Shown one piece after another: positions 9,593 through 35,392 of a stretch of DNA of 40,121 nucleotides. The stretch is taken from NCBI GenBank assembly GCA_946616285.1, contig CAMOIT010000006.1, forward strand, positions 1 through 40,121, in the 5' to 3' direction. Under the pieces are notes generated by a model. It was not told where the DNA came from, did no database searches, and worked only from the letters and a program-made list of their open reading frames with translations. Made by a program: the position numbers and the translations under genes. The stretch is from an uncultured Bacteroidales bacterium (lineage in GTDB: Bacteria > Bacteroidota > Bacteroidia > Bacteroidales > UBA932). The first letter of the stretch is position 1, and each line of letters starts with the position of its first letter.

Positions 9593-11131
9593 CTAAAGGT
9601 TGCGAAGGAGGTTGGTAAGGGAAACCTTCTTCTCGATCATGTCGCGGAGACTGTCGATAGGAACGCGCTCCTGGGTCATGGTGTCGCGGTCGCGGACGGT
9701 GACGCAGTTGTCCTTAAGCGTATCATGGTCGATGGTGACGCAGAAAGGAGTGCCGATTGCATCCTGCCTGCGATAGCGCTTGCCGATGGAATCCTTCTCG
9801 TCGTACTGGTAGGAGAAGTCGTACTTGAGCTCGTCGACCACCTTCTGGGCCACCTCGGGCAGGCCGTCCTTCTTCACGAGCGGCATCACGGCCACCTTGA
9901 TCGGGGCGAGCGGGGCGGGAATCTTCATCACGACGCGCTCCTCGCCGTTCTCGAGCTTCTCGACGGTGTAGGAATGGGCCATGACGGCGAGGCACATGCG
10001 GTCAACGCCGATGGACGTCTCAATGACATACGGGGTATAGGACACATTCTCCTCAGGATCAAAGTATTCGATCTTCTTGCCGGAGAACTTCTGGTGGTTG
10101 CCCAGGTCGAAGTTGGTGCGGCTGTGGATGCCTTCCAGCTCCTTGAAGCCGAAGGGGAAGTTGAACTCGATGTCGGTGGCGGCGTTGGCGTAGTGGGCCA
10201 GCTTCTCATGGTCGTGGAAGCGGTAGTTCTCCGCGCCCATGCCGAGGTTCACGTGCCACTTCATGCGGTGCTCCTTCCACTTCTTGAACCACTCGAGTTC
10301 GGTTCCGGGCTTGATGAAGAACTGCATTTCCATCTGCTCGAACTCCCTCATGCGGAAGATGAACTGACGGGCCACAATCTCGTTGCGGAAAGCCTTGCCT
10401 ATCTGGGCTATGCCGAAAGGAATCTTCATTCGACCTGTCTTCTGGACGTTAAGGTAGTTCACAAAGATGCCCTGGGCAGTCTCCGGACGCAGGTAAATGG
10501 TGCTGGCGCCGTCGGCCGTGGAACCCATTGAGGTCTGGAACATCAGGTTGAATTGACGGACCTCGGTCCAGTTGCAGGTGCCGGAAATGGGGCAGACGAT
10601 GTTGTTGTCGATGATGATCTGCCTGTATTCGGCAAGGTCGTTGGCCTTTTCGGCGGCTACATAACGGTCATGCACTGCATCCCACTTGGCCTTTTCGCGA
10701 AGGACGTTGGGGTTGGTGGCGCGGAACTGGGCTTCGTCGAAGGCTTCGCCGAATTTCTTGCGGCCCTTGGAAACTTCCTTCTCTATCTTTTCCTCGATCT
10801 TGCCAAGGAAATCTTCGATCAGAACATCGGCGCGATAACGCTTTTTGGAATCCTTATTGTCGATGAGGGGGTCGTTGAAGGCGCCCACGTGGCCGGATGC
10901 CTCCCAGATACGGGGGTGCATGAAGATGGCCGAATCGATGCCGACGATATTCTCGTTGAGGCGGGTCATCGCTTCCCACCAGTAATTCTTGATGTTGTTC
11001 TTGAGCTGCACGCCCATCTGGCCGTAGTCGTACACGGCAGCCAGGCCGTCGTAGATTTCGCTGGAGGGGAAGATGAATCCGTACTCCTTGCAATGGGCTA
11101 CAAGCACTTTGAAGAGTTCGTCCTGTGTCAT
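9593..11131 (-). CDS. glyQS: Glycyl-tRNA synthetase (dimeric type)
   Basis: A 512-residue class II aminoacyl-tRNA synthetase that charges tRNA-Gly. The N-terminus (YGFIFPSSEIYDGLAAVYDY) is typical of the alpha2-type enzyme. Class II motif 2 is seen as AQIGKAFRNEI, with FRMREFEQMEMQFF downstream, and motif 3 as ETSIGVDRMCLAVMAHSY. The C-terminal anticodon-binding domain starts near LAPIKVAVMPL. Length is normal. The gene is followed after five bases by the small membrane/HTH protein. The upstream region carries a REP-like element and a TAAATTTG -7 motif (11225-11218, minus) without a clear -33 element. Confidence 0.97.
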   Translation of the reverse strand: MTQDELFKVLVAHCKEYGFIFPSSEIYDGLAAVYDYGQMGVQLKNNIKNYWWEAMTRLNENIVGIDSAIFMHPRIWEASGHVGAFNDPLIDNKDSKKRYRADVLIEDFLGKIEEKIEKEVSKGRKKFGEAFDEAQFRATNPNVLREKAKWDAVHDRYVAAEKANDLAEYRQIIIDNNIVCPISGTCNWTEVRQFNLMFQTSMGSTADGASTIYLRPETAQGIFVNYLNVQKTGRMKIPFGIAQIGKAFRNEIVARQFIFRMREFEQMEMQFFIKPGTELEWFKKWKEHRMKWHVNLGMGAENYRFHDHEKLAHYANAATDIEFNFPFGFKELEGIHSRTNFDLGNHQKFSGKKIEYFDPEENVSYTPYVIETSIGVDRMCLAVMAHSYTVEKLENGEERVVMKIPAPLAPIKVAVMPLVKKDGLPEVAQKVVDELKYDFSYQYDEKDSIGKRYRRQDAIGTPFCVTIDHDTLKDNCVTVRDRDTMTQERVPIDSLRDMIEKKVSLTNLLRNL

Positions 11132-11158: not shown

Positions 11159-11212
11159 TGAGATTCTCTCGCTTCGCTCGGAATGACAACTTTGCTTCGC
11201 TCGGAATGACAA
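11159..11212. repeat. REP-like palindromic element (copy 1), in the glyQS leader
   Basis: Starts with TGAGATTCTCTCGCTTCGCTCGGAATGACA and then repeats GCTTCGCTCGGAATGACAA as a partial second copy in the same orientation. The TGAGAT...ATGACA ends and the internal CGCTTCGCTCGG match the element at 17921. It lies between the DUF4249 stop and glyQS, inside the likely glyQS leader. Confidence 0.75.
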
Positions 11213-11239: not shown

Positions 11240-12094
11240 TTATTCGTCTGGCATAGTGATGGAATATTCGGTGCAGCCGTAGCCGGCGAAGTAGCCAAGG
11301 GCGCCTTCCACGTTGCCTGGGACATTATTGTAGGAGGACAGGATGGGGATGCTGGCCTGAATGGCGTCGGTGTCGAAAATGCGCCACACACCGGCCATAT
11401 CCTCATTCATGGAGCAGAATCGCAGGTGAACGGTTGTGCCTGCAGGGAAATAGCTGTGCACTTCCGTTTCGGAAAAGACTCTGGCGCCTCGAAGGATAAG
11501 AGCATTGGCATCAGCCCCGTCGGGAAGCTGCTCGTCGTCGATAAGGTTGAGCCTGGTGGGATAGAAAGTGCTGTCCACGCCGTGCACGCGGCTGAAGAAT
11601 TTGTAATAATTGTGCTCTCCGGGGGGATCTGTAAAATAGGCCCTGATGAGCCATGCCCTCTCGCGCTCACCGTATCTTTCCGTTTTCATGGACGTAAGAG
11701 GGACGGCAGCGGGGATGGTAGTCACCGCCCTGGCCTTATGGGTGGCTGTTTCCACCGTCAGGGTGTAGGTTTTTCCTTCCTCACCAATCATGCGGCTTGT
11801 GGTATATACATAAGGCGGCAGGCAGCCCTTCCAGGGCATTCCTGTAAGCAGGACCTCGTTTTCACCGTCGCTTATCGACACTTTAGCCCGGCGGATCACA
11901 TGGGCGTCCAGGGCATCGACATCCTGCTGCTCCTCGCCTGGCCTTATCGTAGTGGTAAGCTGCACCATCGGCGGCTGGCCTGAACAGATCCAGGCCTCTA
12001 CCACCAGGCGGTCTTCCTGAACCACTGCAGGTGGCTGCCCCTGACAGGCAGCAAGTACAGCCAGTGAAATCAATATGTAAGGAACTTTTGTCAT
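11240..12094 (-). CDS. DUF4249 family lipoprotein
   Basis: A 284-residue lipoprotein with a lipobox (VLAAC, Cys17). The N-terminal pattern RLVVEAWICSGQPPMVQLTTT is the recognisable start of DUF4249, and ISDGENEVLL and YTLTVETATHKARAVTTIP fit the Ig-like middle. DUF4249 proteins are coded next to a TonB-dependent receptor in Bacteroidota and are thought to be its surface partner, in the manner of SusD; their substrates are mostly unknown. The receptor gene lies four bases upstream. The usual DUF4249 C-terminus (CxDCRxxGGTxxKP) is absent here, where the protein ends in GCTEYSITMPDE. It is the last gene of the acyltransferase/glycosyltransferase operon. Confidence 0.8.
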   Translation of the reverse strand: MTKVPYILISLAVLAACQGQPPAVVQEDRLVVEAWICSGQPPMVQLTTTIRPGEEQQDVDALDAHVIRRAKVSISDGENEVLLTGMPWKGCLPPYVYTTSRMIGEEGKTYTLTVETATHKARAVTTIPAAVPLTSMKTERYGERERAWLIRAYFTDPPGEHNYYKFFSRVHGVDSTFYPTRLNLIDDEQLPDGADANALILRGARVFSETEVHSYFPAGTTVHLRFCSMNEDMAGVWRIFDTDAIQASIPILSSYNNVPGNVEGALGYFAGYGCTEYSITMPDE

Positions 12095-12098
12095 GCCG

Positions 12099-14096
12099 TT
12101 AAAATTTCAGTGAATAGCCGATGGAAGGCATAAAACGTATTCCGATGCCCTCGAAGCTGTATTTGAAACCCGTATCGCTTATTGAAAGATTGCGGTATAA
12201 GGGATTCTTGGCACCGAATACATTATACATTGAAAAATTCAGCGCATGGTCCACGATGCCGGTTTTTCCAAGATTGCAGGTTACGCCGATATCGGTACGT
12301 AAATACCAGGGCAGACGGGCGCTGTTATGGGGTCCGTACTCGATGAGCAGGTAATTGGACAGGAGGTAAATGTCGGTAGCCGGCGTGTAGGGAGTTCCTG
12401 TCGCAGCCAGGGAGGTCAGGGAGAAAACCCATCGGCCCAGCTTGTAGGAGGCCACAAGGTCGGCTTCGAATGTGCGTTCGTGGAAGGCGGGAAGCTCACC
12501 TTCTTCTGGGCTGAAAGTGCGCAGGGAACGTCCCCAGGACAGGGAAAGCCACCCTGTAACGGGACCGGACTTCTTGTGCAGCATCATATTGATGCCGAAA
12601 GCCCGGCCTTTCCCGCTTCGAAGAGCGCCCTCCAGCGAATACGGGCTGCTGATAATATCCACCAGTCCGTCCCTGTACTCCACCTGATTCTCAAGATTCT
12701 TGTAATACAGCTCGGCGGAAAGGCTGAAGCTGTCGTTCCAAAATGATACCTGGTGCTGAATGGAAGCGCCTAAACTGCGCTGCGGCCCGCAAACTGTTCC
12801 GGCAAGCATCCAGAATTCGAACGGCAGGCCTATTCCAGTGAAACCAGCCTGAGACAGGTTCTGATGGTAGAGGCCGAGCCTCATGGACAGTTTTCCGCCC
12901 CGGTGGAAATCCCACCCTACAGTGACCTCGGGACTCAGTTCAGGGACCCATTTCCCGTCAGGGCCATGCCACAGAATGGCTTTCATGGATGCGTCCAGGT
13001 CGAAACCTCCCCATTGTCTCATGTACCTGGCATAGACAGTGCCTTCCTGGCCGTACTGAATTTCGGGATTGTCGGCCATGCCGAAATAGGAGCCTTCGGA
13101 ATAAACCTGCTGCGGATGGGCGACATGGAAAAGGAAGGATCCGCCAAAATAAAGATGGGGATATCGCCACTGCAGGTCGTAGCCGGCAGTGGTTATCTTG
13201 GAAGGGATGGAGAAGTTTATAGCCGCATAAGACATCACCGGCGACAGGCCATAGTGCGTGACGAAGGCCTTATGCCGGAACTCGGCGCCGCCGGAAAGCG
13301 AATGGGAATGGTGGATGGCCGCCATGGCGTTGCGCCAGGGAAGGTCGACCGAAATCGTATTGAAATCGGTGGTGAGAATCACGGCATCGTCTCCGTAATA
13401 TGCATCGACCCAAAGTTTGTCCTTGTCCGACAGACGCCATATTCCGGTAAGGTTGGCGTCCGTGAAGCCGTATTTGATGTTGGAAGAATCAATGCGAAGG
13501 AACTTGCCGTACAGCAAATTAAGGTAGGAGCGCCGGACTGAAGCTGTGAATGAGCCCACTTTTCCCGTTGGCACAGTAACGCTGCCGCCCGCGGCAAGAA
13601 GCCCCATCGAGAATTCGCCTCCGAACTTTTGGGCCGGAGCCTGGGGCAGGACTATGTCCAGCTTTCCGCCCAGCCTGTTGGCCTCGGGGGCCGTCGTCGA
13701 ATAGTCCATGGCGCTGAAATGCGACGGATTGAAGACGGAGAAAAGGCCGAAAAGATGGGATGCCCCATAGATTGGCACTCCGCCGGAAGAAATCAGGTTA
13801 TGGGAATGATCGTTCCCCTGGATATGGATGCCTGCGTCTATTTCGGACGAAGCCTGCATGGAAGGAAGGTAACGGGAAATCCTTAACGGGTCGGTGCTTC
13901 CGAGAAATGCGGGGGTGGTTTTGAGAAGCTCGGCATCCAGCTTAATGGCGCCCTCGGAAAGCTTCAGCATGGACTCGTTTTTCCGCGAAATCAGCACAGA
14001 CTCCTCCAGAAACAGGGAATCGGTCTGCGCCTGCAAAGGCAGGGAACTTACCACTGCCAGAATAAAAAGCAAGGGTATGAGTTTACTCCCCTTCAC
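12099..14096 (-). CDS. TonB-dependent receptor, short form, paired with DUF4249 protein
   Basis: A 665-residue outer-membrane receptor. The signal peptide ends near SLPLQAQ. The plug at about 40-150 contains DPLRISRYLPSMQASSE, IHIQGNDHSHNLISSGGVPIY and ANRLGGKLDIVLP, followed by a beta-barrel ending in a C-terminal aromatic residue (IGYSLKF). It lacks the carboxypeptidase-regulatory-like domain that usually precedes the plug in receptors paired with DUF4249, so it is shorter than usual. It overlaps the end of the upstream lipoprotein gene by 14 bases and lies four bases before the DUF4249 gene. The transport substrate is unknown. Its place behind a glycosyltransferase and acyltransferase raises the possibility of a link to an envelope molecule (inference). 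Confidence 0.85.
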   Translation of the reverse strand: MKGSKLIPLLFILAVVSSLPLQAQTDSLFLEESVLISRKNESMLKLSEGAIKLDAELLKTTPAFLGSTDPLRISRYLPSMQASSEIDAGIHIQGNDHSHNLISSGGVPIYGASHLFGLFSVFNPSHFSAMDYSTTAPEANRLGGKLDIVLPQAPAQKFGGEFSMGLLAAGGSVTVPTGKVGSFTASVRRSYLNLLYGKFLRIDSSNIKYGFTDANLTGIWRLSDKDKLWVDAYYGDDAVILTTDFNTISVDLPWRNAMAAIHHSHSLSGGAEFRHKAFVTHYGLSPVMSYAAINFSIPSKITTAGYDLQWRYPHLYFGGSFLFHVAHPQQVYSEGSYFGMADNPEIQYGQEGTVYARYMRQWGGFDLDASMKAILWHGPDGKWVPELSPEVTVGWDFHRGGKLSMRLGLYHQNLSQAGFTGIGLPFEFWMLAGTVCGPQRSLGASIQHQVSFWNDSFSLSAELYYKNLENQVEYRDGLVDIISSPYSLEGALRSGKGRAFGINMMLHKKSGPVTGWLSLSWGRSLRTFSPEEGELPAFHERTFEADLVASYKLGRWVFSLTSLAATGTPYTPATDIYLLSNYLLIEYGPHNSARLPWYLRTDIGVTCNLGKTGIVDHALNFSMYNVFGAKNPLYRNLSISDTGFKYSFEGIGIRFMPSIGYSLKF

Positions 14097-15216
14097 TCTC
14101 CGCGGGTTTAAAATACTTGTTTATCCTTTCCGCCCAGCCCTTCAGCGATTCGGACAGGGCACTGTCGGAAAATTCGTCCCATGCACGTGAGGAGCCGTCT
14201 TCGAAAAGGAAGACAGGACTGATGTGCCAGTTTCCGGAGCCGTCCATATCCCGGAACACGTCCACGCCAAGGCGGGCCTGTCTGGTTATGCCGCCTTCGT
14301 AGAAAACATCCAGGAACAAATTTTCGTTAAGCTTGTCGGCCATTTCCTGCAGTTTTGTAAGGTCGGCACGGATTGAAGGGTATTCTTCCCTGCTCCGCTT
14401 CACAAGATCGGCGTCCAGGGTGCCGTGAATCTGGACCTGCCCGAGGAAATCGGCGGTAATTTTTGCCCAACCCGGCTGCTTCTCATTATCCCCCTGAAGT
14501 TCGCCGTCGAAAGATATAATCATCTTTCCGTCATGGCGAAGGAGGTAAGAAGATGTGGAAAGACCCGGCCTGTCTATCAGGAACTGGTTAATCGTAAGGC
14601 TGTAGCCAGCCATCTGCAAATTGCCGCTCAGATATAGCCGGTCCTTGTTTTCGTCAAGAATCCCGTCCCGGTCGCTGTCCCTTACGCTGATGTTGAGGGT
14701 TGACATTACCCGCGCCGACGTTTCATCGTTAAGGAACATTACCAGGCGACCCGGAACGCGCACTTTTACCTCGTCCCCGTCCACATTCACCTTATATACA
14801 TCGCTGTTGCTGCCGTAAATCATCTTGAAGGCGGCTCTTTTCCCCTCCGGATATGCTATTATGCTTACCTCGTTGGAGGCGGTGGAAGTGAATTCAAACT
14901 TGTGGTCGATTTCCTCGAAGTCGCCGCCGCCCATGTCGGGAAGCGCATAAACCGCATCCTCGCCTTCCTTATACCAGGAGTCGAAGACATCCGTGGACCC
15001 GGGATAGGTGCGCGACAGCCAGTCGATATGGTCGGTGAAGTCCAGCACGAAGTCCACTTCCCCGCCCCATTTGTCCACGTCAAGCTCGTCTACAAGGGTT
15101 TTTGCCGTCTTTTCAAGGATGTCCTCCTGTTCTTCCGGGGGAATTACCGGCTGCTCTCCCTGCTTGCAGGAAATGGCAAGCAGGCCCAATATAGCAATGT
15201 AATAATGAATCTTCAT
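14083..15216 (-). CDS. Unknown lipoprotein in the acyltransferase/GT2/receptor operon
   Basis: A 377-residue lipoprotein with a clear lipobox (LLAISC, Cys17). I do not recognise the family. Visible features are an acidic N-terminal third, a calcium-loop-like stretch DSDRDGILDENKD near residue 200 that resembles EF-hand or thrombospondin type 3 loops, and a beta-rich middle with alternating polar and hydrophobic residues (YLSGNLQMAGYSLTINQF). The C-terminus is helical. It starts six bases after the glycosyltransferase stop, and its end overlaps the TonB-dependent receptor start by 14 bases, so it is tied to that unit. A periplasmic or surface binding role is possible, but nothing in the sequence proves it. 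Confidence 0.75.
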   Translation of the reverse strand: MKIHYYIAILGLLAISCKQGEQPVIPPEEQEDILEKTAKTLVDELDVDKWGGEVDFVLDFTDHIDWLSRTYPGSTDVFDSWYKEGEDAVYALPDMGGGDFEEIDHKFEFTSTASNEVSIIAYPEGKRAAFKMIYGSNSDVYKVNVDGDEVKVRVPGRLVMFLNDETSARVMSTLNISVRDSDRDGILDENKDRLYLSGNLQMAGYSLTINQFLIDRPGLSTSSYLLRHDGKMIISFDGELQGDNEKQPGWAKITADFLGQVQIHGTLDADLVKRSREEYPSIRADLTKLQEMADKLNENLFLDVFYEGGITRQARLGVDVFRDMDGSGNWHISPVFLFEDGSSRAWDEFSDSALSESLKGWAERINKYFKPAESEGE

Positions 15217-15222
15217 GGCGGG

Positions 15223-16494
15223 TCAGACTGAATGTTTATGCTGTGTAGGTTTCCACTCCACTTTCATGAAAAGTGCTGCTATTGTAAGGGGGATAAAGGT
15301 GGCCATGGAGAAAGGGAACAGCAGTATGTACAGGAACTGTTTCCACTTGGGAGCGTCAAGATAAGGCATGCACTGGAAGACCAGCACGAGGCCGCAGAAA
15401 TACCCTGCAATGAAAGGATATACCCAGTTGGAGATGCAGTAGGTAAGGAATTCCGCATTAAAAACTTCGTACGGCATAGGATTGAAGGCCGCCCAGACCA
15501 GGCCCAGAATGGTGTAAAGGATGAACCAGATGAAGGAAAAAGCGGGGATGGGGGTGATGTGCATCATCATCCCCCACTTGGTGAAGGATGGCTTTCTGAA
15601 AAAACTGCGGTAAAGCTCGGCACCTTTTTTAAAAAATACCTGGTGGTCGCCTTTGGACCAGCGCAGCCTTTGCCGGCAGAAATCCCTGAAACGTACCGGC
15701 TGTTCGTCATAGAAGATGGCGTCGGGGCAGAATTGCACCTTTCCGTCCCTCGCGCACACTACGGTGGATATTTCAAGGTCTTCCGTAAGCGTCGTCGTAT
15801 AGGGCCACCCTCCGGCTTCCATAATGTGACGGGCCGAAACCAGATAGCCGGTACCGGAGGAGAAAGTTCCTATTCCAAGGCTTGATCGGCCGAAATTTAT
15901 CTGGCGCGACTCCCTCAGGTACATGTACCCGCTGGTGCCGGCAAGCCAGTTGTCGGAAAAGTTTTTGGGACAGCGGAAGCCTATTATCACATCTTCGCCG
16001 CAGTCGAAGGCTTTATTCATCTGTTTCACGTAGTCCTTGCCGGCAACATTGTCGGCGTCGAAAATGAAAAAGCCCTCGATTCCCATGTCTCCATACTCCG
16101 CCATTATCTTCTTGAAGGCATAGTCCAGGGCAAAGCCTTTACCCCTGAGGACAGGGTCAGTGCGCTGGAAAACTATGGCTCCCCTCTCCGCTGCCACAGT
16201 GGCCGTTGCATCCGTGCAGTTGTCCGCAACTACAAAGACACTTATTTTTTCGGCAGGATAATCCTGGGCCTTAATGCTGTCCAGAAGCTGCCCTATTACG
16301 GCTTCTTCGTCCTTTGCGGCAATGACGAAAGCGTACCGGTGATCTTTTTCTGCGTCCTTCCAGCGTTTCTTCGGGAGGATCACGCTCACCACTATATGAA
16401 ACATCTGGTTGAAATAGGCGACAGTAAGAACTACTATCACCACCTGGGTTATCAGGAAAAGAACCTTATAGAACGGAACTGTAAATAAAGGCAT
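15223..16494 (-). CDS. Membrane-bound family 2 glycosyltransferase
   Basis: A 423-residue processive-type GT2 of the cellulose synthase-like group. One N-terminal membrane helix (about 10-30) is followed by the catalytic domain. The nucleotide-sugar and metal-binding residues are D91 (VVADNCTDAT) and DAD 146-148 (FIFDADNV), the acceptor/catalytic motif is TED 237-239, and the product-binding QxxRW is present as QRLRW 275-279. The C-terminal third has three or four more membrane helices (about 317-337, 355-376, 387-411). It would transfer a sugar from a nucleotide donor to a lipid or growing chain at the inner membrane. It starts three bases after the acyltransferase gene. Donor and acceptor cannot be told from the sequence. 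Confidence 0.88.
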   Translation of the reverse strand: MPLFTVPFYKVLFLITQVVIVVLTVAYFNQMFHIVVSVILPKKRWKDAEKDHRYAFVIAAKDEEAVIGQLLDSIKAQDYPAEKISVFVVADNCTDATATVAAERGAIVFQRTDPVLRGKGFALDYAFKKIMAEYGDMGIEGFFIFDADNVAGKDYVKQMNKAFDCGEDVIIGFRCPKNFSDNWLAGTSGYMYLRESRQINFGRSSLGIGTFSSGTGYLVSARHIMEAGGWPYTTTLTEDLEISTVVCARDGKVQFCPDAIFYDEQPVRFRDFCRQRLRWSKGDHQVFFKKGAELYRSFFRKPSFTKWGMMMHITPIPAFSFIWFILYTILGLVWAAFNPMPYEVFNAEFLTYCISNWVYPFIAGYFCGLVLVFQCMPYLDAPKWKQFLYILLFPFSMATFIPLTIAALFMKVEWKPTQHKHSV

Positions 16495-16497
16495 AGC

Positions 16498-17367
16498 CTA
16501 CGCTTGTTTGCGGGAAAACAGACGGTAACGGTGGCGGTCTTCAACTTCTACATCCTCCGGAAGCTCTTCCTGACGCTCCAGCAGCTCTTCAGGTTCTGCC
16601 AGGAGGCGCTCCATTTCGGCCAGGACCTTTACGAAATAGAAACCGTCGCAGAAACGTTCGTCCATCACTATGTCAAGCGGCATTGTCTTGGGTGAAGGAT
16701 TCAGTTTCCCCATGGAGACGAATATACCGGTGGTTCCCACGTCATATATATGATGGTAAATGGAAGGCCCGTTGATGGACTTCATATTCGTCAGGAAAAA
16801 GCTCGTGTGGAAGGGGCTGGCTTTGATGACAGGCGCGGGAAGCATGCCGTGCTTGTCCAGCCACAGAGCGGTTTTCACCAGAATTTTAAGGACAAAGTTT
16901 GGAGTAAATGTAAGCACCCTTGCCAGCTTGTCTGTTGAGTTGTTCGCATCTCTTGTGCTGTTCGCCCTGATTGCCTCGTTCATTTTGTCGCGAATCTCTT
17001 TTATGGACTCGTGCCCGGTGAATTCAAGTTTTACAAGGGAGTCCGACGCGGTTACGCTAAGGCTTTTTTTGACCACGAACGATACGCCGATGGATTTGCG
17101 GGCATAGATGCGCCCATTCATTACAAAGCGGTTGAGGCGGGGATAATGCGCATAGGTGCGGACCGAAGCCGCAACAAATAAATGCATATAGTTGTAGCTG
17201 TCCCCTGCCGCTCTTTGCGCCTTGATGAAACTGTCCATAGGTTCGCACGGGATGTCCCGGTGCACCATGTTCTGGGCATCGTAGCGCTTGGTCATTATGT
17301 GCGGGATTATCCGCTGGATCGGGTCGATACCTTTAAGACGTACTCCGTCGGGCCTGAATCCAAACAT
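16498..17367 (-). CDS. Stand-alone E2-like (CAT-fold) acyltransferase domain protein
   Basis: A 289-residue protein made only of the catalytic domain of 2-oxoacid dehydrogenase E2 / chloramphenicol acetyltransferase type. It has no lipoyl or E1/E3-binding domain. The N-terminus (IIPHIMTKRYDAQN) and middle (YNYMHLFVAASVRTYAHYP) fit the E2 core, and the C-terminal active-site region reads MDERFCDGFYF (235-245). In E2 enzymes the motif is DHRxxDG; here the catalytic His is replaced by Glu (E237), while Asp241 and Gly242 are kept. There is no lipoyl carrier or dehydrogenase gene nearby. It is the first gene of the operon with GT2 and may acylate the glycosyltransferase product, or may not be catalytic in the E2 manner. 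Confidence 0.75.
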   Translation of the reverse strand: MFGFRPDGVRLKGIDPIQRIIPHIMTKRYDAQNMVHRDIPCEPMDSFIKAQRAAGDSYNYMHLFVAASVRTYAHYPRLNRFVMNGRIYARKSIGVSFVVKKSLSVTASDSLVKLEFTGHESIKEIRDKMNEAIRANSTRDANNSTDKLARVLTFTPNFVLKILVKTALWLDKHGMLPAPVIKASPFHTSFFLTNMKSINGPSIYHHIYDVGTTGIFVSMGKLNPSPKTMPLDIVMDERFCDGFYFVKVLAEMERLLAEPEELLERQEELPEDVEVEDRHRYRLFSRKQA

Positions 17368-17385
17368 AGGCTAAAGCTTTAATTG

Positions 17386-17408
17386 TTTATAACTTACAAA
17401 GTTATAAA
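17386..17408. promoter_or_regulatory. Perfect 10-bp palindrome overlapping the acyltransferase-operon -7 box
   Basis: TTTATAACTT, three bases (ACA), then AAGTTATAAA: perfect 10-bp arms. The right arm covers most of the minus-strand -7 element TAACTTTG (17404-17397). The placement is that of an operator for a dimeric regulator; alternatively it is a structured 5' end. Confidence 0.5.
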
Positions 17409-17428
17409 TTTTCGGCCTATTCACCAAA
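17397..17428 (-). promoter_or_regulatory. Bacteroidota-type promoter of the acyltransferase/GT2/receptor operon
   Basis: On the minus strand TTTG (17428-17425), 20 bases, TAACTTTG (17404-17397), an exact match to the -33/-7 consensus. The -33 element lies in the last codons of folK. The -7 box ends 29 bases before the ATG at 17367. Confidence 0.72.
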
Positions 17429-17908
17429 AACAGAGACAGGAAGGGCTTCGCGGATGGAAGAACGGAGGATTTCAAGAAGAGGGATACGGGCGAAATCGCG
17501 TTCAGCTATGCGGGGATGAGGAATAGTCAGATCTTTATTATTAATGGTGAAAGTACCGTAGACAAGTATGTCTATATCGATTATCCTGTCGTGGTATATC
17601 CTGTTGCCGCTTTCGTCGTAAATCGGCTCCGACAGGTCCCGGCCCATGGCTTTTTCTATTTCCTTGACCTTTCTAAGAATATCCATTGCAGCCTCTTCAG
17701 GAGTGCCTGCGCGGGGCGGCCTGTACATTACGCACATGTTAAGGAAAGGCTGCCCCTCGAAGCCCCAGGCCGGGGTTTCCATTATGCGGGAAATTCTTTC
17801 CGGATGCATGCCGAAAGCATCGTCCAGAAGGTTGACCGCCCTGAGGAGGTTGATTTCACGCTCCCCGACGTTGGACCCGAGGCCCAGGTATACATCCACT
17901 CTTTCCAT
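17417..17908 (-). CDS. folK: 2-amino-4-hydroxy-6-hydroxymethyldihydropteridine pyrophosphokinase (HPPK)
   Basis: A 163-residue HPPK of folate synthesis, which moves pyrophosphate from ATP to 6-hydroxymethyl-dihydropterin in the cytoplasm. Family motifs are seen in order: YLGLGSNVGEREINLLRAV at the N-terminus, ETPAWGFEGQPFLNMC (pterin-side loop), the Mg-binding DRIIDIDILVYG, and the C-terminal IPHPRIAERDFARIPLLEI. Length is normal for the family. It lies after the DUF59 gene in the same direction, with a 138-base spacer filled by REP-like repeats, so co-transcription with the suf genes is uncertain. Other folate genes are not in view. Confidence 0.95.
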   Translation of the reverse strand: MERVDVYLGLGSNVGEREINLLRAVNLLDDAFGMHPERISRIMETPAWGFEGQPFLNMCVMYRPPRAGTPEEAAMDILRKVKEIEKAMGRDLSEPIYDESGNRIYHDRIIDIDILVYGTFTINNKDLTIPHPRIAERDFARIPLLEILRSSIREALPVSVFGE

Positions 17909-17920
17909 AACAATAATGCC

Positions 17921-18046
17921 TGAGATTCTCTCGCTTCGCTCGGAATGACATTAATTTGTCATACGCTCGAAATGACATTAATTTGTCATACGCTCGGGAT
18001 GACATTAATTTGTCATACCGAGGGCCGAAGGGCCGAGTGTATCTCA
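17921..18046. repeat. Compound REP-like element with three 27-bp tandem copies (copy 2)
   Basis: The left end TGAGATTCTCTCGCTTCGCTCGGAATGACA and the right end TGTCATACCGAGGGCCGAAGGGCCGAGTGTATCTCA are long imperfect inverted repeats (TGAGAT...ATCTCA at the extremes). Between them the 27-base unit CGCTCG(G/A)(A/G)ATGACATTAATTTGTCATA is tandemly repeated three times (17937-17963, 17964-17990, 17991-18017). It fills the whole space between the DUF59 stop and the folK start. Confidence 0.85.
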
Positions 18047-26776: not shown

Positions 26777-26841
26777 TTTTACCTACACAAGAAAAAAGGT
26801 AATCAGTATCAATATTTATGTTTAATTAATTTTTCATGCTT

Positions 26842-29800
26842 ATGAAAAAAATCAGTTTGTTCCTGATGTGCGTCCTTGCCACCATCTCGGTGGGACTGAA
26901 CGCGCAGAACATCACCGTGAAGGGAACTGTGTCTGATGCATCCACCGGCGAAGGCATCGCCTATGCAGGTGTGATTGTGAAAGGTGGAAACACCCTCACC
27001 GGCACAACCTCCGATGAAACCGGTGCCTACGAGATCACCGTCTCCAAGAATGCAGTTCTGGTGTTCTCCTCCATCGGCTACAAAGACCTGGAAGTTCCCG
27101 TTCAGGGCAGGGCAGTCGTAGACGTCGCCCTCACCGCCGACAACGAAATGCTTGACGAAACCATCGTTGTGGCTTATGGTACCGCAAGGAAGTCCTCATT
27201 CACCGGTTCCGCATCAATGGTAGACGCCGAAAAGCTGGAAAACCGTTCCGTCTCCAACGTCTCCAACGCACTCCAGGGTGCTGTTGCCGGTGTTCAGACC
27301 GTTTCCAGCAGCGGTACTCCCGGTTCCGGATCCAGCATCATCATCCGCGGTATCGGCTCCATCTCCTCCAGCCAGAGCCCTCTGATCGTGGTTGACGGCG
27401 TTCCTTACGAAGGTTCCCTCAACTCCATCGCCACCCAGGACATCGAGTCCATGACCGTCCTCAAGGACGCTGCCGCAAACTCCATGTACGGTGCACGTGG
27501 TTCCAACGGTGTCATCATCATCACCACCAAGGGCGCCAAGACCGGACGCGCTGTGGTCAACTTCGAAGGCAAAGTCGGTTTCAACACCCGCGCCGTTCCC
27601 AACTACGACGTAATCACCGACACCGGCGAATACTACGAGATGATGTGGGAAGCCTATCGTAACAGCCTCCTTTCGGAATACTCCTATCCCGAAGCCAACC
27701 AGATCGCTTCCGAAACCCTCATCTCTGACGTTCTCGTATACAATAAATACAGGTACGTAGAAGATAACAACATCATCGATCCCCTTACCGGAAAGATTAC
27801 CACCCACGCCCGCAACGCTTCCTACAAATGGAACGACAACTGGATCACCGATCCTTACCGCAACGGCCTCCGTCAGGAATACAACATCAACGTATCCGGC
27901 GGTAACGGCGGCACCCAGGCCTACGCTTCCCTCGGTTACCTTAACGACAAGGGTTATGTAGTAGGTTCCGGCTTCGACCGTTTCTCCGGCCGCGTTAAAG
28001 TGGACCAGAAGATTGGCAAGAGCATCAAGATCGGAGGTAACCTCTCCTACGCTCACACCAGGATGGACCAGTTCAACGACAACGTGAGCACCAACTATTC
28101 CAACATCTTCATGTTCTCCCAGAGCATCGGTCCCATCTATCCTATCTATCTGTACGACGAAAACGGCAACAGGGTAAAGGACGCCAAGGGTAACGACAAA
28201 TACGACTTCGGCGACACCGACGGTCACGCTCGTCCTTATGGTTCTACCGCAAACCCTTACGCACAGGCCAAGGAAAGTATCTATAAAAACGAAGTTGACG
28301 TAGTTACTTCACGCGCATTCTTCGAGTGGAAGTTCCTGAAGGACTTCACCTTCACCGCAAACGTGGCATACGATGTGTTCAACAGTAACAACACTGCGTT
28401 CATGACTCCTATCGGCGGTGATGCTTACAATGTAGGCGGACGCGGCGAAAAGGAAACCAACTTCTATCACGCCCTCAACGCCAACCAGCTCCTCAACTGG
28501 AGCCACAAGTTCGGCCGTCACGAAGTAAGCGCCCTCCTCGGTCACGAAACCAAGTCCGACAAGTCCTCAACCCTGTACGGACACATGACCAAGTACTCCC
28601 TATACACCAATCCCGAATTTGCCAATGCAGCAGAGTATCAGAATCTCACCAGCTACACTTCGGCATACGCACTGGAAGGTTACTTCTTCAAAGGCGAATA
28701 CAACTTCGCAGACCGTTACTACCTCACCGCTTCCATCCGTCGCGACGGTTCCTCCAGGTTCTCCGCACAGAACCGCTGGGGTACCTTCTGGGCAGTGGGT
28801 GCATCCTGGCGTATAAAGGAAGAGGCCTTCATGAAGGACATCGACTGGATCGACAACCTCAAACTCAAGGCCAGCTACGGTACCCAGGGTAACGATAGCG
28901 TAGGTTATGCTCACAACTATACAGACCTCTACGAAGTAAACCGCATTGACGGCGAAGCCGCATTCGTCAAGGTTCTCCGCGGCAACCCCGACCTCACATG
29001 GGAGAAGTCCAACAACCTTAACATCGGTCTGGAATCTTCCTTCCTGAACCGCATCACCTTCAACTTCGACTTCTTCATCAAGGAAACCAAGGACCTCCTC
29101 TATGCATCTCCCCTTGCCCCTTCAGAGGGTAACCCTGCATACATCTACAGGAACGAGATGGACATGAAGAACACCGGTTTCGAAATTGAACTCGCAGCCG
29201 ACATAATCAAGACCAACAACATCCGCTGGAACGTGAGCGTCAACGGCACCCACTACAAGAACCAGCTCACCAAGCTCCCTGTTTCCAAGCCCGCTTCGGA
29301 ATTCCCCAACGGCTATCAGGCAGGTAACTACTGGCGTCAGCTCGGCGGCAGCCTCTATGACTGGTACACCTACGACTATGCAGGCGTAGATCCCACCAAC
29401 GGTAAGCCCCTGTTCAACGTATGGGAGTTCGAAAAGGATAAAAACGGTAACGAAACTTCCAACTACGTCCAGAAGATGGTCAAGGACGCCGAAGGCAACA
29501 TGGTTCCCCTCCAGTACAACGAGTACTCCAAGGCAGGCCAGTACCGCACCGGCAAGTCGGCCATTCCTGACTTCGTAGGCGGTCTTTCCACCACCTTCGA
29601 GGCCTATGGCTTCGACCTCTCCCTGCAGGCATCCTACCAGCTTGGCGGTTGGGTAATGGACAGCTACTATCAGGCTCTCATGAGTGCCGGTGACAAGGGC
29701 CACAACTTCCACAAGGACATGTTCGCCCGCTGGACTCCCGCCCACACCGACACCAACATTCCGGCTCTCAACTACGAAAACCAGAATGCATCCCCTCAGG

Positions 29801-30045
29801 GTACATTCTTCCTCACCAGCGCTTCTTACTTCAGCCTTAACAACGTAACTCTTGGCTACACCCTTCCCAAGAACCTCACGAAGCGCATTCACATCGACAA
29901 ACTCCGCATCTTCGTCACCGGTGACAATGTGTGGATGACTACCCACAGAAAGGGTCTGGATCCCCGTCAGAGCTTCTCCGGCGAAACAGGCTACGTATAC
30001 TCTGCACTGGCAACATATGCAGGCGGTATCCAACTCACTTTCTAA
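26842..30045 (+). CDS. SusC/RagA family TonB-dependent transporter (no STN domain)
   Basis: A 1067-residue receptor; the start MKKISLFLMCVLATISVG is preferred over a Met two codons earlier. Order: signal peptide (cleavage near LNAQ), carboxypeptidase-regulatory-like domain (KGTVSDASTGEGIAYAGVIV, about 25-100), TonB-box/plug (ETIVVAYGTARKSSFTGSAS, SPLIVVDGVPYEG, DAAANSMYGARGSNGVIIITT) and a long beta-barrel ending GGIQLTF. It has no STN domain, so it is a plain importer, unlike the first locus. The SusD gene follows after 31 bases. Codon choice is strikingly uniform (AAC, ATC, CTC, TCC, GGT), which suggests strong expression. The M16 peptidase downstream and the RagA similarity make peptides a possible substrate (inference). 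Confidence 0.95.
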   Translation: MKKISLFLMCVLATISVGLNAQNITVKGTVSDASTGEGIAYAGVIVKGGNTLTGTTSDETGAYEITVSKNAVLVFSSIGYKDLEVPVQGRAVVDVALTADNEMLDETIVVAYGTARKSSFTGSASMVDAEKLENRSVSNVSNALQGAVAGVQTVSSSGTPGSGSSIIIRGIGSISSSQSPLIVVDGVPYEGSLNSIATQDIESMTVLKDAAANSMYGARGSNGVIIITTKGAKTGRAVVNFEGKVGFNTRAVPNYDVITDTGEYYEMMWEAYRNSLLSEYSYPEANQIASETLISDVLVYNKYRYVEDNNIIDPLTGKITTHARNASYKWNDNWITDPYRNGLRQEYNINVSGGNGGTQAYASLGYLNDKGYVVGSGFDRFSGRVKVDQKIGKSIKIGGNLSYAHTRMDQFNDNVSTNYSNIFMFSQSIGPIYPIYLYDENGNRVKDAKGNDKYDFGDTDGHARPYGSTANPYAQAKESIYKNEVDVVTSRAFFEWKFLKDFTFTANVAYDVFNSNNTAFMTPIGGDAYNVGGRGEKETNFYHALNANQLLNWSHKFGRHEVSALLGHETKSDKSSTLYGHMTKYSLYTNPEFANAAEYQNLTSYTSAYALEGYFFKGEYNFADRYYLTASIRRDGSSRFSAQNRWGTFWAVGASWRIKEEAFMKDIDWIDNLKLKASYGTQGNDSVGYAHNYTDLYEVNRIDGEAAFVKVLRGNPDLTWEKSNNLNIGLESSFLNRITFNFDFFIKETKDLLYASPLAPSEGNPAYIYRNEMDMKNTGFEIELAADIIKTNNIRWNVSVNGTHYKNQLTKLPVSKPASEFPNGYQAGNYWRQLGGSLYDWYTYDYAGVDPTNGKPLFNVWEFEKDKNGNETSNYVQKMVKDAEGNMVPLQYNEYSKAGQYRTGKSAIPDFVGGLSTTFEAYGFDLSLQASYQLGGWVMDSYYQALMSAGDKGHNFHKDMFARWTPAHTDTNIPALNYENQNASPQGTFFLTSASYFSLNNVTLGYTLPKNLTKRIHIDKLRIFVTGDNVWMTTHRKGLDPRQSFSGETGYVYSALATYAGGIQLTF

Positions 30046-30076
30046 TCCGATACTAATCTGTTAAATTGCAAGTACT

Positions 30077-31594
30077 ATGAAATTCATCAAATATATTGCT
30101 GTTTCTCTGCTCGCAGCCGGAATCCTTTCCTCCTGCGCAAAGGAATTTCTTGATACTGAGTACACAAGGTATCTTGGCTCCGAGGAAGCCGCAGAAGCCG
30201 CAGGTGAAAACCCCGACGTTTTCCTTAACGGTATGTGGTCCTTCATGTCCGGAGCGGGCGATATTTCAACCGCTCACGACTGCTTCAACTTCATGGCTAT
30301 CTTGATGATGTCCAACGTTGAGGCCCAGGATATGGCTCTTGCCTCCTCCCACTACTTCATCTACGACTATCAGTTCGACTATCGTGCCCAGCAGTACATA
30401 AAGACCCGCCTTATCTGGAGTGTTTTCTACTCCCTGATCGACAAAGCCAACGCCGTTATCACCCTCTATCCCGACGGTGGTAAGACCGCGGGCGAAAAAG
30501 CCCTGTACGGTCAGGCACTTGCAGTTCGCGGTATGTCCTACTACTATCTGGTCCTTCACTATCAGCACGTAGTTGACGCCAGCGGCAAACCCAACCTGAA
30601 CGCCCCCGCAGTTCCTATCATCTACAACGCCATCGACGGTAAGACTGAGGCCGAAATGGAGGCTGCCAAGGGCCGCAACACTGTTGCCGACATTTACGCA
30701 GTTATCGAGAAAGACCTCGAAGGTGCCGTCAAGGCCCTCGGCGAAGCCCGCGAAGATGGATTTGTCCGTGGCAACAAGAACTACATCGACGTAGACGTTG
30801 CAAACGGTCTCCTTGCCCGATACTACCTCCTGAGCCAGCAGTGGCAGAAAGCCGCCGATGCAGCTCACGCAGCTCACCAGAACTACACCATCATGTCTTC
30901 TGACGAGATCATGGACGGCTTCATGAATGTTGCCAATCACGAATGGATGTGGGGCTTCAACCACACCACCGAGACCAGCACCATCTATGCTTCCTTCTTC
31001 TCGCACATCTCCAGCTACGGTCCCGGTTACGGCGGAGCTGTCGGTTGCGTAAAGATGATCGACGCACAACTGTACTCCTATATCCCCGACACCGACGCCC
31101 GTCGCGCCTGGTGGAGCGGCCCTCAGGGAGACGCCTCCCAGCCCACCGCTGCCGCAAAGAAAGCCTATGCCAACCACAAGTTCGGTTACGAATCCGACTG
31201 GGCCATGGACTATATTTACATGCGTGCATCCGAAATGGTTCTCATCGAGGCCGAAGCTTACGCTCACCTTGGTGACGGTGCAAAGGCCGCTACCGTGCTC
31301 AAGGAACTCATGAGCCAGCGCCAGCCCGACTGGAACGAATCCTCCGTACTGGTAGAAGATGTCTATCTGCAGCGCCGTATCGAACTCTGGGGAGAAGGCT
31401 TCTCCTACTTCGACCTCAAGCGCCTGAACCTTGGCATCGACCGCGGATATCAGGGCACCAACCACCTTGCAGGCTGCCGTTTCGCCGTGAAACCCCAGAG
31501 CGCCTGGTGGCTGTATCAGATTCCTCTGTCCGAGCTTAACGAGAATTCCCATATCTCCAGCGACGACCAGAATCCTCTTGACGACGAGGAGTAA
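30077..31594 (+). CDS. SusD/RagB family outer-membrane lipoprotein
   Basis: A 505-residue SusD/RagB protein with a lipobox (ILSSC, Cys20). Family landmarks: AVRGMSYYYLVLHYQHV in the N-terminal half, YMRASEMVLIEAEAYAHLGD in the TPR-like region, and the C-terminal RRIELWGEGFSYFDLKRL and YQIPLSELN. It would form the substrate-binding lid on the SusC channel coded directly upstream and shares that gene's regular, C-ending codon use. There is no overlap, and the spacing is 31 bases. The substrate is not directly readable. Confidence 0.95.
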   Translation: MKFIKYIAVSLLAAGILSSCAKEFLDTEYTRYLGSEEAAEAAGENPDVFLNGMWSFMSGAGDISTAHDCFNFMAILMMSNVEAQDMALASSHYFIYDYQFDYRAQQYIKTRLIWSVFYSLIDKANAVITLYPDGGKTAGEKALYGQALAVRGMSYYYLVLHYQHVVDASGKPNLNAPAVPIIYNAIDGKTEAEMEAAKGRNTVADIYAVIEKDLEGAVKALGEAREDGFVRGNKNYIDVDVANGLLARYYLLSQQWQKAADAAHAAHQNYTIMSSDEIMDGFMNVANHEWMWGFNHTTETSTIYASFFSHISSYGPGYGGAVGCVKMIDAQLYSYIPDTDARRAWWSGPQGDASQPTAAAKKAYANHKFGYESDWAMDYIYMRASEMVLIEAEAYAHLGDGAKAATVLKELMSQRQPDWNESSVLVEDVYLQRRIELWGEGFSYFDLKRLNLGIDRGYQGTNHLAGCRFAVKPQSAWWLYQIPLSELNENSHISSDDQNPLDDEE

Positions 31595-31629
31595 TGGAAT
31601 TAAGTTCAAACAACTAAAAGTAAATTGTC

Positions 31630-32445
31630 ATGAAAAGAATACTTAACGCAATTCTTGGACTTACCATTGCTTTCGCATCGCTCACATCGTGCTTCAAAGT
31701 AATGGGCGACAAAGCGTCGTACGATGCCCAGTTTGCCGTGGACGCCCCAAAGGTAACCCTTGACATCACCGATATCAAGTTCAATAAGGCAACCGCAACT
31801 TTCGGTGTATACGACAGCGTGGACCTTGCACATCAGACCGGTATTATGTTCTCCGAAACCGAAGATTTCGCTGAATACGAGACTATCATTTCAGATGCAG
31901 CAGGAAAACCTGTATTGATTTCAGGACTTCTGCCCTTAAGCACTTACTTCGTACGCGCTTTCGTATACGGTAAGGGTGGTCAGGTGGCATATTCCGATAT
32001 TAAGAAATTCACCACCGCCGATTCTCCCGAATTCCCTCTTGCCGGTAACTACACTGCAACGGACTACAAACTGAACACCTCTACCTATACATTTGCACAG
32101 GACGGTGATTCCTACGATGTGGTTATTACCGTTAGCGGCAATGACGTAGAAATCTTCAACCTCTGGGGCGGCGAAGAGACCATCACCGGTACCTATGATA
32201 CCGCTACACACATCATAGCTGTTCCTACCTTCCAGCTGATACTGCTTCACCCCGACTACGGCCAGGTTGTCGCAGCAGCCTTAAAGGCCGACCTGAGCGA
32301 CTATGACGATTATGTTTATTTCGAATTTGCACCTAAGGGCGGTACTATTGAGACCTCATTGTACCAGGCACTCGTTCCCGCTCTGGGCGCCGGATTCGGA
32401 ATCTACGCAACGGAGATGATTCACGAAGAACTCCCCGAAGAGTAA
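31630..32445 (+). CDS. SusCD-associated surface lipoprotein
   Basis: A 271-residue lipoprotein with a lipobox (ASLTSC, Cys21). Residues about 40-130 look like an Ig/fibronectin-III-like domain (KVTLDITDIKFNKATATFGV, then LPLSTYFVRAFVYG, the typical last strands of such folds). The C-terminal half (about 135-271) is beta-rich (ITGTYDTATHIIAVP) with no catalytic motif. The place after SusD is that of a surface binding protein. It starts 35 bases after the SusD stop. A hairpin with a T run directly follows the stop, so the SusCD-lipoprotein transcript may end here. Confidence 0.78.
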   Translation: MKRILNAILGLTIAFASLTSCFKVMGDKASYDAQFAVDAPKVTLDITDIKFNKATATFGVYDSVDLAHQTGIMFSETEDFAEYETIISDAAGKPVLISGLLPLSTYFVRAFVYGKGGQVAYSDIKKFTTADSPEFPLAGNYTATDYKLNTSTYTFAQDGDSYDVVITVSGNDVEIFNLWGGEETITGTYDTATHIIAVPTFQLILLHPDYGQVVAAALKADLSDYDDYVYFEFAPKGGTIETSLYQALVPALGAGFGIYATEMIHEELPEE

Positions 32446-32458
32446 TAATTTAATGAAT

Positions 32459-32490
32459 AAGGTGATCAAATTTTGGTCACCTTATTTTTT
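32459..32490 (+). terminator. Hairpin with T run after the SusCD-lipoprotein operon
   Basis: AAGGTGATC and GGTCACCTT pair (one G-U) around AAATTTT, followed by ATTTTTT. It ends ten bases before the M16 peptidase start, so it is either a leaky terminator/attenuator or the peptidase has a promoter that is not obvious. Confidence 0.75.
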
Positions 32491-32500
32491 CCTTAAGCTT

Positions 32501-35392
32501 ATGAAAAAAATAATTCTGGCTCTTTCACTGCTGCTGGCGTTTTCCTTTGCTCAGGCTCAGGGATTAAAGACATTCAAACTAAAGAACGGACTCACCGTAT
32601 TCATTTGGGAAGACCACGAAAAGCCCGATGTATACGGAAACGTAGTAGTAAGGGCGGGTTCCATGAACGAACCTGCAAATTACACCGGTCTGGCCCATTA
32701 TCTGGAACATGTCCTTTTCAAGGGCACGCAGAAGATAGGCGCACTTGACTGGGAGGCCGAAAAGCCCGTCTACGAACAGATCATCGCCAAATACGACGAG
32801 CGTGCAGCCGAAACCGATCCCGAGAAACGCGCAGCCATCGACAAAGAAATCAACCGCCTTACAGTTGAGCAGGGCAAGATTTCGCTGTCTCAGGAGTATT
32901 CCTCTCTTATAGAGGGTATGGGCGGTACAGGCCTTAACGCAGCCACCACCTTCGACTATACCTACTATCACAACTCTTTCCCGGCATATCAGATAAACAG
33001 CTGGCTGGAGGTGGCGTCTGAACGCTTCCTTGACCCTGTTTTCCGCCTCTTCCAGAGCGAACTGGAGACTGTTTACGAGGAGTACAACATGGGCAAGGAC
33101 AACCCCAGTTCGCTGGGCTCGGAATTCCTCTTCGCAAAGGCTTTCGAGGGACATCCTTACGCCAGGGGAGTGATAGGTCTTCCCGAGCATCTCAAGAACC
33201 CTCAGCTGAGCGTTCTTATGGACTTCTACCAGACCTGGTACGTTCCGGACAACATGGCCCTTATACTTGTTGGCAACGTAGATACACGTAAGGTCATGAA
33301 CAAGATAAACATGACCTTCGGCCGCCTTCCGCGCCGTCCTGTTCCCGAAAGGACAGTCTGGCCGGAACTCAACATAAGCGGACGCACCGCCTACACCACC
33401 AAGTTCTCACAGTATCCCGAGATTTATCTCGTATTCCCCGGCATCCCCGAAGGACATGCCGATGAAAACGCGCTTGACGTGTGCCTCAGGCTTCTTTCGA
33501 ACAACTCCGACACCGGCATACTGGACAAACTGGTCATAGACGACGAACTAATGATGGGAATAGCCCAGAGCCTTTCCCTCCGCGAACAGGGCAGGATTAT
33601 CCTTGCCGGCGTTCCTTCGTACGACAACGCCCAGCGCCGCTTTACCTCGTCGAAAGCCGTGGAAAAGAAGCTTCTCGCCGCAATAAAGGAACTTACCGAC
33701 GGTAAAATAGACCCTGATATGGTGGAAGCCATCAAGGCCAACCTGTGCCGCGATTTCACCCTTTCAATGGAAAGCAATGAATCCAAGTCCCAGGCCATAA
33801 TGAGCGTTTTTGTCAACGAAACCCCCATGTCCGATTTGCTGGAGTATACCGACAAGATAATGGCGGTTACAGTGGATCAGGTGAAGGCAGTTGCTAAAAA
33901 ATACTTCGGCAAGGACTATATCGCCATTTTCAACGAGCAGGGAAAGCCCGAAAAAGCCTCTAAAATCCGCAAGCCGGACCTTGACCCTATCGAGCCCCCG
34001 GTGGGAGCATCTTCCGAATATGCAAAGCAGTTAAGGGCCCTTCCCGTGCAGGAAATGAATCCCAACTTCGTAGACTGGAACAGTGTTCAGCAGAAAAAGC
34101 TTAACACTTATTCCAACGTCTATTACACGGAGAACAAGGAAAACGACGTATTTACGCTCACTGTGCGTTATGGCGTGGGTACTCACGTATTCCCCAAGCT
34201 TGAATACGCCGCAGACCTTATGTCCGACGCAGGCATAATGGGTGGCTCCAACGCCAGGCAGGTGAAGGAGGAACTCTCAAAACTGCATGCAACGATGAAT
34301 ATCAGCGCAGACGAGAGCTACCTTTACATAACTCTGAGAGGCTTCGAAAACACCCTCCAGGATGCCTGCATGATACTTACGCGCCAGATGCTTATGCCGG
34401 ACCTGGACCAGAATCAGCTTAATTCTACCATAAGCGGCGAATTCTCCCAGCGAATGGTGCGTAAGAACAACGTCAATTACATGGCCCAGGCCTTGAGCAG
34501 CTACATCAACTACGGCGAGCATTCTCCCTACATAGAGGAACTTTCGGACGAAGATGTGTACGGCCTTGACATCGCCACACTTACCGGTGATATCAACCGC
34601 GCCACCCACTATGCATCTGACGTTTTCTATTCCGGAACGCTGCCTTTTGACACGGTTTACGCCATTCTGTCGTCTTCGCTTCCCCTCACCGAGAACGAGA
34701 TGCCGTCCATGTCGCCTTACCGCAGGCCGATGGCCGAATACAAGGAGAACACCGTTTACTTCCTGCCCAATTCCGACGCACAGCAGAGCCAGGTATTCTT
34801 CTATATACCTATGGGAGAATTCGACCCTGCTCTGGAAGTGAAGAGGATGGCTTTCTCGCAGTACATCAGCGGCGGCTTCAGCGGACTTATCATGAATGAA
34901 ATCCGTGAGAAAAACTCAATGGCCTACACCGCCTACGGACAGCCTGTAACCGATGGTTTCCCGGGCTCTGAGGTGTATTTCACCGGCTACATGGGAACGC
35001 AGAACGACAAAGCCTTGGGCGCCATTGAACTCTATCACAAGCTGCTTACTGACATGCCTGAGCACCCTGAACGCATAGACAACATCAAGAGCTACCTGCG
35101 CCAGGTTCTCATTACCCGTAAGCCATCTTACCGTTCCCTCGGACAGAATATCGCCCGCTGGAAGCAGCAGGGATACACCCAGGATCCGGCTATAGAGCAG
35201 GTGAAACAGGTCGAAGCCCTTAACTTCCAGGATATCCTGGACTACTACAACCAGTACGTAAAGGGCAAGCCCATCATTATCGGTGTTCTGGGTAACCCCA
35301 AGGACATTCCCGCAAAGCAGCTTTCTGCTTACGGCAAAGTGGTCCGACTCTCCGACAACGATCTCTTTAACCAGGAAGGAAAACTCTTCTAG
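32501..35392 (+). CDS. M16 family zinc metallopeptidase (pitrilysin-like), secreted
   Basis: A 963-residue peptidase with a signal peptide (MKKIILALSLLLAFSFAQAQ); the track ORF starts 16 codons earlier, inside the hairpin. The inverted zinc motif HxxEH is intact as HYLEHVLFKGT (residues about 67-71), and the third ligand Glu is probably in LETVYEEYNMG. There are two M16 halves: the active N-terminal half and a C-terminal half (from about 530, VDWNSVQQKK) without HxxEH, as usual for the long form. It would degrade peptides in the periplasm or at the surface, fitting a peptide-import role for the upstream SusCD pair. The stop codon overlaps the stop of the convergent gene by four bases. Confidence 0.94.
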   Translation: MKKIILALSLLLAFSFAQAQGLKTFKLKNGLTVFIWEDHEKPDVYGNVVVRAGSMNEPANYTGLAHYLEHVLFKGTQKIGALDWEAEKPVYEQIIAKYDERAAETDPEKRAAIDKEINRLTVEQGKISLSQEYSSLIEGMGGTGLNAATTFDYTYYHNSFPAYQINSWLEVASERFLDPVFRLFQSELETVYEEYNMGKDNPSSLGSEFLFAKAFEGHPYARGVIGLPEHLKNPQLSVLMDFYQTWYVPDNMALILVGNVDTRKVMNKINMTFGRLPRRPVPERTVWPELNISGRTAYTTKFSQYPEIYLVFPGIPEGHADENALDVCLRLLSNNSDTGILDKLVIDDELMMGIAQSLSLREQGRIILAGVPSYDNAQRRFTSSKAVEKKLLAAIKELTDGKIDPDMVEAIKANLCRDFTLSMESNESKSQAIMSVFVNETPMSDLLEYTDKIMAVTVDQVKAVAKKYFGKDYIAIFNEQGKPEKASKIRKPDLDPIEPPVGASSEYAKQLRALPVQEMNPNFVDWNSVQQKKLNTYSNVYYTENKENDVFTLTVRYGVGTHVFPKLEYAADLMSDAGIMGGSNARQVKEELSKLHATMNISADESYLYITLRGFENTLQDACMILTRQMLMPDLDQNQLNSTISGEFSQRMVRKNNVNYMAQALSSYINYGEHSPYIEELSDEDVYGLDIATLTGDINRATHYASDVFYSGTLPFDTVYAILSSSLPLTENEMPSMSPYRRPMAEYKENTVYFLPNSDAQQSQVFFYIPMGEFDPALEVKRMAFSQYISGGFSGLIMNEIREKNSMAYTAYGQPVTDGFPGSEVYFTGYMGTQNDKALGAIELYHKLLTDMPEHPERIDNIKSYLRQVLITRKPSYRSLGQNIARWKQQGYTQDPAIEQVKQVEALNFQDILDYYNQYVKGKPIIIGVLGNPKDIPAKQLSAYGKVVRLSDNDLFNQEGKLF

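Follow-up and report, generated by a model that had tools for sequence, protein, structure and literature searches.

A five-gene insertion between folK and glyS joins a conserved receptor-lipoprotein core to a glycosyltransferase and an E2-fold protein

The window (the whole stretch of 40,121 nucleotides that was analysed, which is contig 6 in the 1.6-Mb draft assembly of a gut Bacteroidales) carries a lineage-specific insertion of five genes at a single site, between folK and glyS. Three of these genes, LIPO-TBDR-DUF4249, form a core which is conserved in the genus and extends a known type of receptor pair to three genes. All five open reading frames lie tightly packed on the minus strand; their gaps of 3, 6, -14 and 4 bases, as given in the original prediction, were found to be exact when re-checked in the ORF calls. 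The features of the block and of its surroundings are the following:

16498..17367, minus strand: ACYL, E2/CAT-fold protein, 289 aa (PF00198 E 3e-6, homologue alignment, PDB 3mae profile match)
15223..16494, minus strand: GT2, membrane glycosyltransferase of a distant BcsA/PgaC type, 423 aa (PF13641 E 1e-20, PDB BcsA E 4e-6)
14083..15216, minus strand: LIPO, member of a fast-evolving lipoprotein family with no Pfam match or known fold, 377 aa
12099..14096, minus strand: TBDR, short TonB-dependent receptor, 665 aa, GTG start (plug and barrel via orthologues)
11240..12094, minus strand: DUF4249 lipoprotein, 284 aa (PF14054 E 5e-25, model with Ig/FN3-like domains)
17397..17428, minus strand: Bacteroidota-type promoter TTTG-N20-TAACTTTG (motif scan), overlapping the 3' end of folK
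17417..17908, minus strand: folK, native left border of the insertion site (comparison with relatives)
9593..11131, minus strand: glyS, native right border of the insertion site (comparison with relatives)
11159..11188, strand not given: copy 1 of a 30-nt direct repeat, between DUF4249 and glyS
17921..17950, strand not given: copy 2 of the repeat, a perfect match to copy 1, on the far side of folK

The insertion site was examined in 31 related loci whose glyS is at least 94% identical (94-96%). The gene order in relatives is sufS, sufE, an FeS-assembly gene, folK and glyS. In 29 of these 31 loci nothing but 14-115 bases separates folK from glyS, where the window holds exactly the five block genes; of the other two, one contig starts near glyS and one has no detectable folK. 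Both borders are considered native because the window is as similar to the relatives as the relatives are to one another: median folK identity is 65% between the window and the relatives and 64% among the relatives themselves, and glyS, the suf genes and tonB behave in much the same way. We infer that the genus of the compared relatives is Cryptobacteroides. The closest genus relatives of the block proteins are 52-62% identical, and those of LIPO about 20-30%. Tight spacing is by itself weak evidence for a functional unit, since gaps of at most 10 bases occur in 49% of same-strand neighbour pairs in related loci, where runs of at least five genes account for 12 of 429; what takes the five-gene block beyond chance is that the site is empty in 29 of the 31 loci from close relatives.

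The single consensus promoter that had been placed before the block was also recovered by the motif scan: TTTG-N20-TAACTTTG, at 17428-17397, has no second full match from 9.5 to 20.2 kb on the minus strand, for a chance expectation of 0.25 per strand per 40 kb. As for further TANNTTTG elements on the strand of the block, none occurs inside it past the first start codon, and one overlaps that codon. A sigma-70 scan of the window is uninformative for Bacteroidota. The five genes are probably co-transcribed from this one promoter. A tonB-like gene (PF03544, 8105-8800) lies near glyS and is native at the site in relatives; we rejected it as a partner carried in by the insertion, since it adjoins glyS in relatives without the block, and it probably lies near the inserted receptor by chance. 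On the plus strand, the region 26836-35392 contains genes for a SusC-like receptor, a SusD-like lipoprotein and an M16 peptidase.

Conservation of the core was assessed on receptor orthologues of 29-61% identity and their neighbourhoods in the genus (30 loci: the window and L061-L089). DUF4249 directly follows TBDR in all 30, and a LIPO-family lipoprotein lies directly upstream of TBDR in 23, the seven loci with no LIPO before the receptor including those of genomes G114, G109 and G120. Among the ten closest named loci the TBDR-DUF4249 pair is found ten times, with LIPO directly upstream eight times. In 70 more distant loci across the wider Bacteroidota, DUF4249 was found directly after TBDR in 51 and LIPO in one, that of Chryseotalea sanaruensis (L144, 8995-10260, minus strand), where it is convergent to DUF4249 and scores 34 bits. 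The TBDR and DUF4249 trees agree on their well-supported groups: the window and G114 are grouped with 100/100 support in both, and another group common to the two trees holds the window, G114, G089, G083 and G086. The original prediction of a five-gene unit is retained as far as one block with one promoter at folK-glyS is concerned; the gene-neighbourhood search shows that the order conserved in the genus is LIPO-TBDR-DUF4249, and the full order is unique to the window among the genomes sampled. The genome of the window has a second LIPO-TBDR-DUF4249 module (L066, G000:C44, 215-3708), with a TBDR 40% identical and a short lipoprotein. At L080 (G018:C80, 1-11655) several proteins of 520-605 aa, at least two of them lipoproteins, flank a TBDR-DUF4249 pair whose TBDR is broken by one TAG.

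The perfect 30-nt direct repeats (11159-11188 and 17921-17950) flank the block together with folK. They were rejected as a target-site duplication of the cassette because folK is enclosed too; repeat-mediated recombination at them is possible. At 17937-18018 of the window, between folK and the FeS-assembly gene, CGCTCGGAATGACATTAATTTGTCATAC, which is related to the 30-nt repeat, forms a tandem array of three 28-nt copies with a period of 27. A rearrangement mediated by the repeats, or a misassembly, would have placed side by side genes without any joint function, and perfect repeats on both sides, a draft genome in 112 contigs (71% complete) and the scattered positions of ACYL and GT2 in the genus are in its favour. 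We nevertheless consider this unlikely: the genes at the two borders are native and keep the order that is expected, the repeats also enclose a folK that looks native, and the order of the core is conserved elsewhere.

The family names first proposed were borne out by Pfam for DUF4249 (E 5e-25), GT2 (E 1e-20) and the 2-oxoacid_dh (E2) family (E 3e-6), and for the receptor by its orthologues. The 665-aa window protein itself matches no Pfam model; it is assigned to TBDR through its orthologues, of which 6 of 26 match Plug and 1 of 26 the TBDR barrel. Its signal peptide is followed by a TonB-box-like LEESVLIS, and it has no CarboxypepD_reg domain. Searches of PDB sequences with the TBDR and DUF4249 profiles gave no matches. 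The AlphaFold model of DUF4249 (pLDDT 88, pTM 0.82) is beta-rich, and its best Foldseek matches in the PDB, to tandem Ig/FN3 domains, have low TM-scores; "Ig-like" should be taken as a fold-class guess.

For LIPO, neither the window protein nor any of 23 family members matches Pfam. Members range from about 130 to 580 aa and have in common a lipobox and a C-terminal RF(D/E)DG(T/S)S-like motif in the alignment, where the shortest members, placed by their C-terminal part, are less certain. A single-sequence scan of the named genome contigs found nothing, whereas profile searches did find copies: a profile built on a subset of LIPOs finds unprofiled copies upstream of receptors in G018, G124, G045, G038 and G000:C44. 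Structure prediction of the 377-residue lipoprotein alone, an analysis already proposed with the original prediction, yielded a model (pLDDT 75, pTM 0.74) in which helices at the N-terminus are followed by a long stretch of antiparallel strands and a helix at the C-terminus; this model has no PDB match under E 0.001 by Foldseek. After the lipobox Cys, position +2 is acidic in 9% of DUF4249 and 19% of LIPO proteins and position +3 is basic in 52% and 62%, an acidic export signal being not universal. The residues after the lipobox Cys of LIPO and DUF4249 make up no clear signal of this kind, and surface exposure of the two is accordingly no more than possible.

A precedent is the BT2172-BT2173 pair of Bacteroides thetaiotaomicron: disrupting either gene has similar consequences, a shared phenotype reported for this pair only, and the account consulted states no substrate (PMC11003636). 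We found no settled substrate in the literature for TBDR-DUF4249 pairs. Like the window, BT2172-BT2173 has a TBDR with an adjoining DUF4249 lipoprotein gene, an association conserved across Bacteroidota; unlike it, the window adds LIPO, GT2 and the E2-fold gene upstream, and its TBDR is short, without an N-terminal CarboxypepD_reg domain. SusCD systems likewise bring together an outer-membrane TBDR and an accessory lipoprotein in one operon, but the block has no SusD-family match in Pfam, its lipoproteins being DUF4249 and LIPO.

The two remaining genes are less firmly tied to the core. ACYL scores 27.2 bits against PF00198 (cut-off 23), compared to 41.9 bits for a paralogue. It is similar to E2 components and CAT-fold acyltransferases over its N- and C-terminal parts, but lacks a lipoyl domain and has Glu for the catalytic His of DHRxxDG (DERFCDG in the window). 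DERxxDG is present in 10/10 aligned homologues, three paralogues included, and aligns with DHRILDG of PDB 3mae. Acyltransferase activity of the window protein is not supported by these residues, and with the catalytic His lost the acylated product originally suggested is not implied. Paralogues, also with Glu for His, adjoin AMP-binding acyl ligases at L095 (5466-8069), L099 (1736-4329) and L100 (9255-11847), which makes acyl handling plausible for the wider ACYL family. ACYL orthologues (53-60% identity) occur in six other genomes of 101 and adjoin GT2 or TBDR in none, contrary to the proposed tie between the acyltransferase and these genes; in the loci read their neighbours are unrelated metabolic genes (aldolase, threonine aldolase, hydroxyacid dehydrogenase). 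ACYL is thus most likely loosely attached, as a passenger or pseudo-enzyme.

The translation of GT2 contains DAD, TED and QRLRW, i.e. the DxD, TED, Q(Q/R)xRW pattern, and like BcsA/PgaC-type synthases the protein has DxD, TED, QxxRW and membrane segments. It differs from them by its score to BcsA, only about 30 bits and far under the NCBIfam cut-offs of named synthases, and neither a synthase partner nor an export gene is recognised in the block. Only four others among 400 genus genomes carry GT2, and no further one passes the same threshold in 393 genomes across the order. Their four copies are 81-99% identical mutually and 51-54% identical to that of the window. In G114, GT2 runs in frame into TBDR, with DUF4249 next and no LIPO: this fusion, predicted from a draft genome, is one frame of 1081 codons (L061, G114:C19, 7995-11240) in which the GT2 tail RHYRY leads directly to a signal-peptide-like stretch ending in RAQ. 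The association of GT2 with the receptor therefore recurs in one other genome, and GT2 stands alone in three of its five carriers (G283, G154 and G379). A single origin of the link is favoured because both linked copies accompany sister receptors (100/100), independent joining being the alternative. No TBDR remnants were found behind the standalone GT2 genes, so that a GT2-TBDR unit which existed in an ancestor and was then split is not borne out. The MurU/AmgK-like genes that precede the G114 fusion raised the idea of a link to peptidoglycan recycling, which was dropped because the window block has no such genes. GT2 may be a loosely attached accessory which joined this receptor clade and modifies the envelope or uses an imported sugar.

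It had been suggested that all five genes serve one pathway, in which the cell makes an envelope molecule, acylated or glycosylated, that is then handled at the outer membrane. A single promoter, near-zero gaps, one block at one site and the in-frame fusion in G114 of GT2 to a TBDR of the same clade are what such a pathway would lead one to expect; however, the five-gene order is unique in the sample, ACYL elsewhere has aldolase, threonine aldolase or hydroxyacid dehydrogenase genes as neighbours and has lost its catalytic His, and GT2 is solitary in G283, G154 and G379. A joint biosynthetic pathway is possible, not favoured, and we judge it improbable. We are very doubtful of a glycan synthase coupled to the receptor, by which the GT2 product would be handled by a TBDR-LIPO-DUF4249 complex and the 1081-residue GT2::TBDR frame of G114 would be split by signal peptidase or an internal start; if true, inner-membrane synthesis and outer-membrane transport would be made in a fixed ratio. 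Outward transport, in which GT2 would make a polymer that TBDR and the lipoproteins display or export, is hardly credible despite the processive-type motifs of GT2 and the GT2::TBDR fusion in G114, since the core is present in most genomes without GT2 and TBDRs act as importers in established cases.

The reading that we consider fairly probable is that of an acquired TonB-dependent outer-membrane module with two accessory lipoproteins, accompanied by a GT2 specific to the lineage and by an E2-fold protein as passenger. The five genes form a lineage-specific insert at folK-glyS, likely under one promoter. An import role is proposed for the core because TBDR-DUF4249 pairs, BT2172-BT2173 among them, are expected to have one: TBDR, LIPO and DUF4249 would most likely capture a substrate and import it across the outer membrane, the direction being deduced by analogy. 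The fast-changing LIPO may set specificity. GT2 would be accessory to the receptor clade, with a possible role in envelope modification or in the use of an imported sugar, and ACYL a passenger or pseudo-enzyme. As the clean empty site at folK-glyS shows, a receptor module can share one acquired block with enzyme genes, and neighbourhood alone does not amount to one pathway. TBDR-DUF4249 pairs gain here a third partner, a fast-evolving lipoprotein without recognised domain, which occurs chiefly in one group of gut bacteria, Cryptobacteroides.
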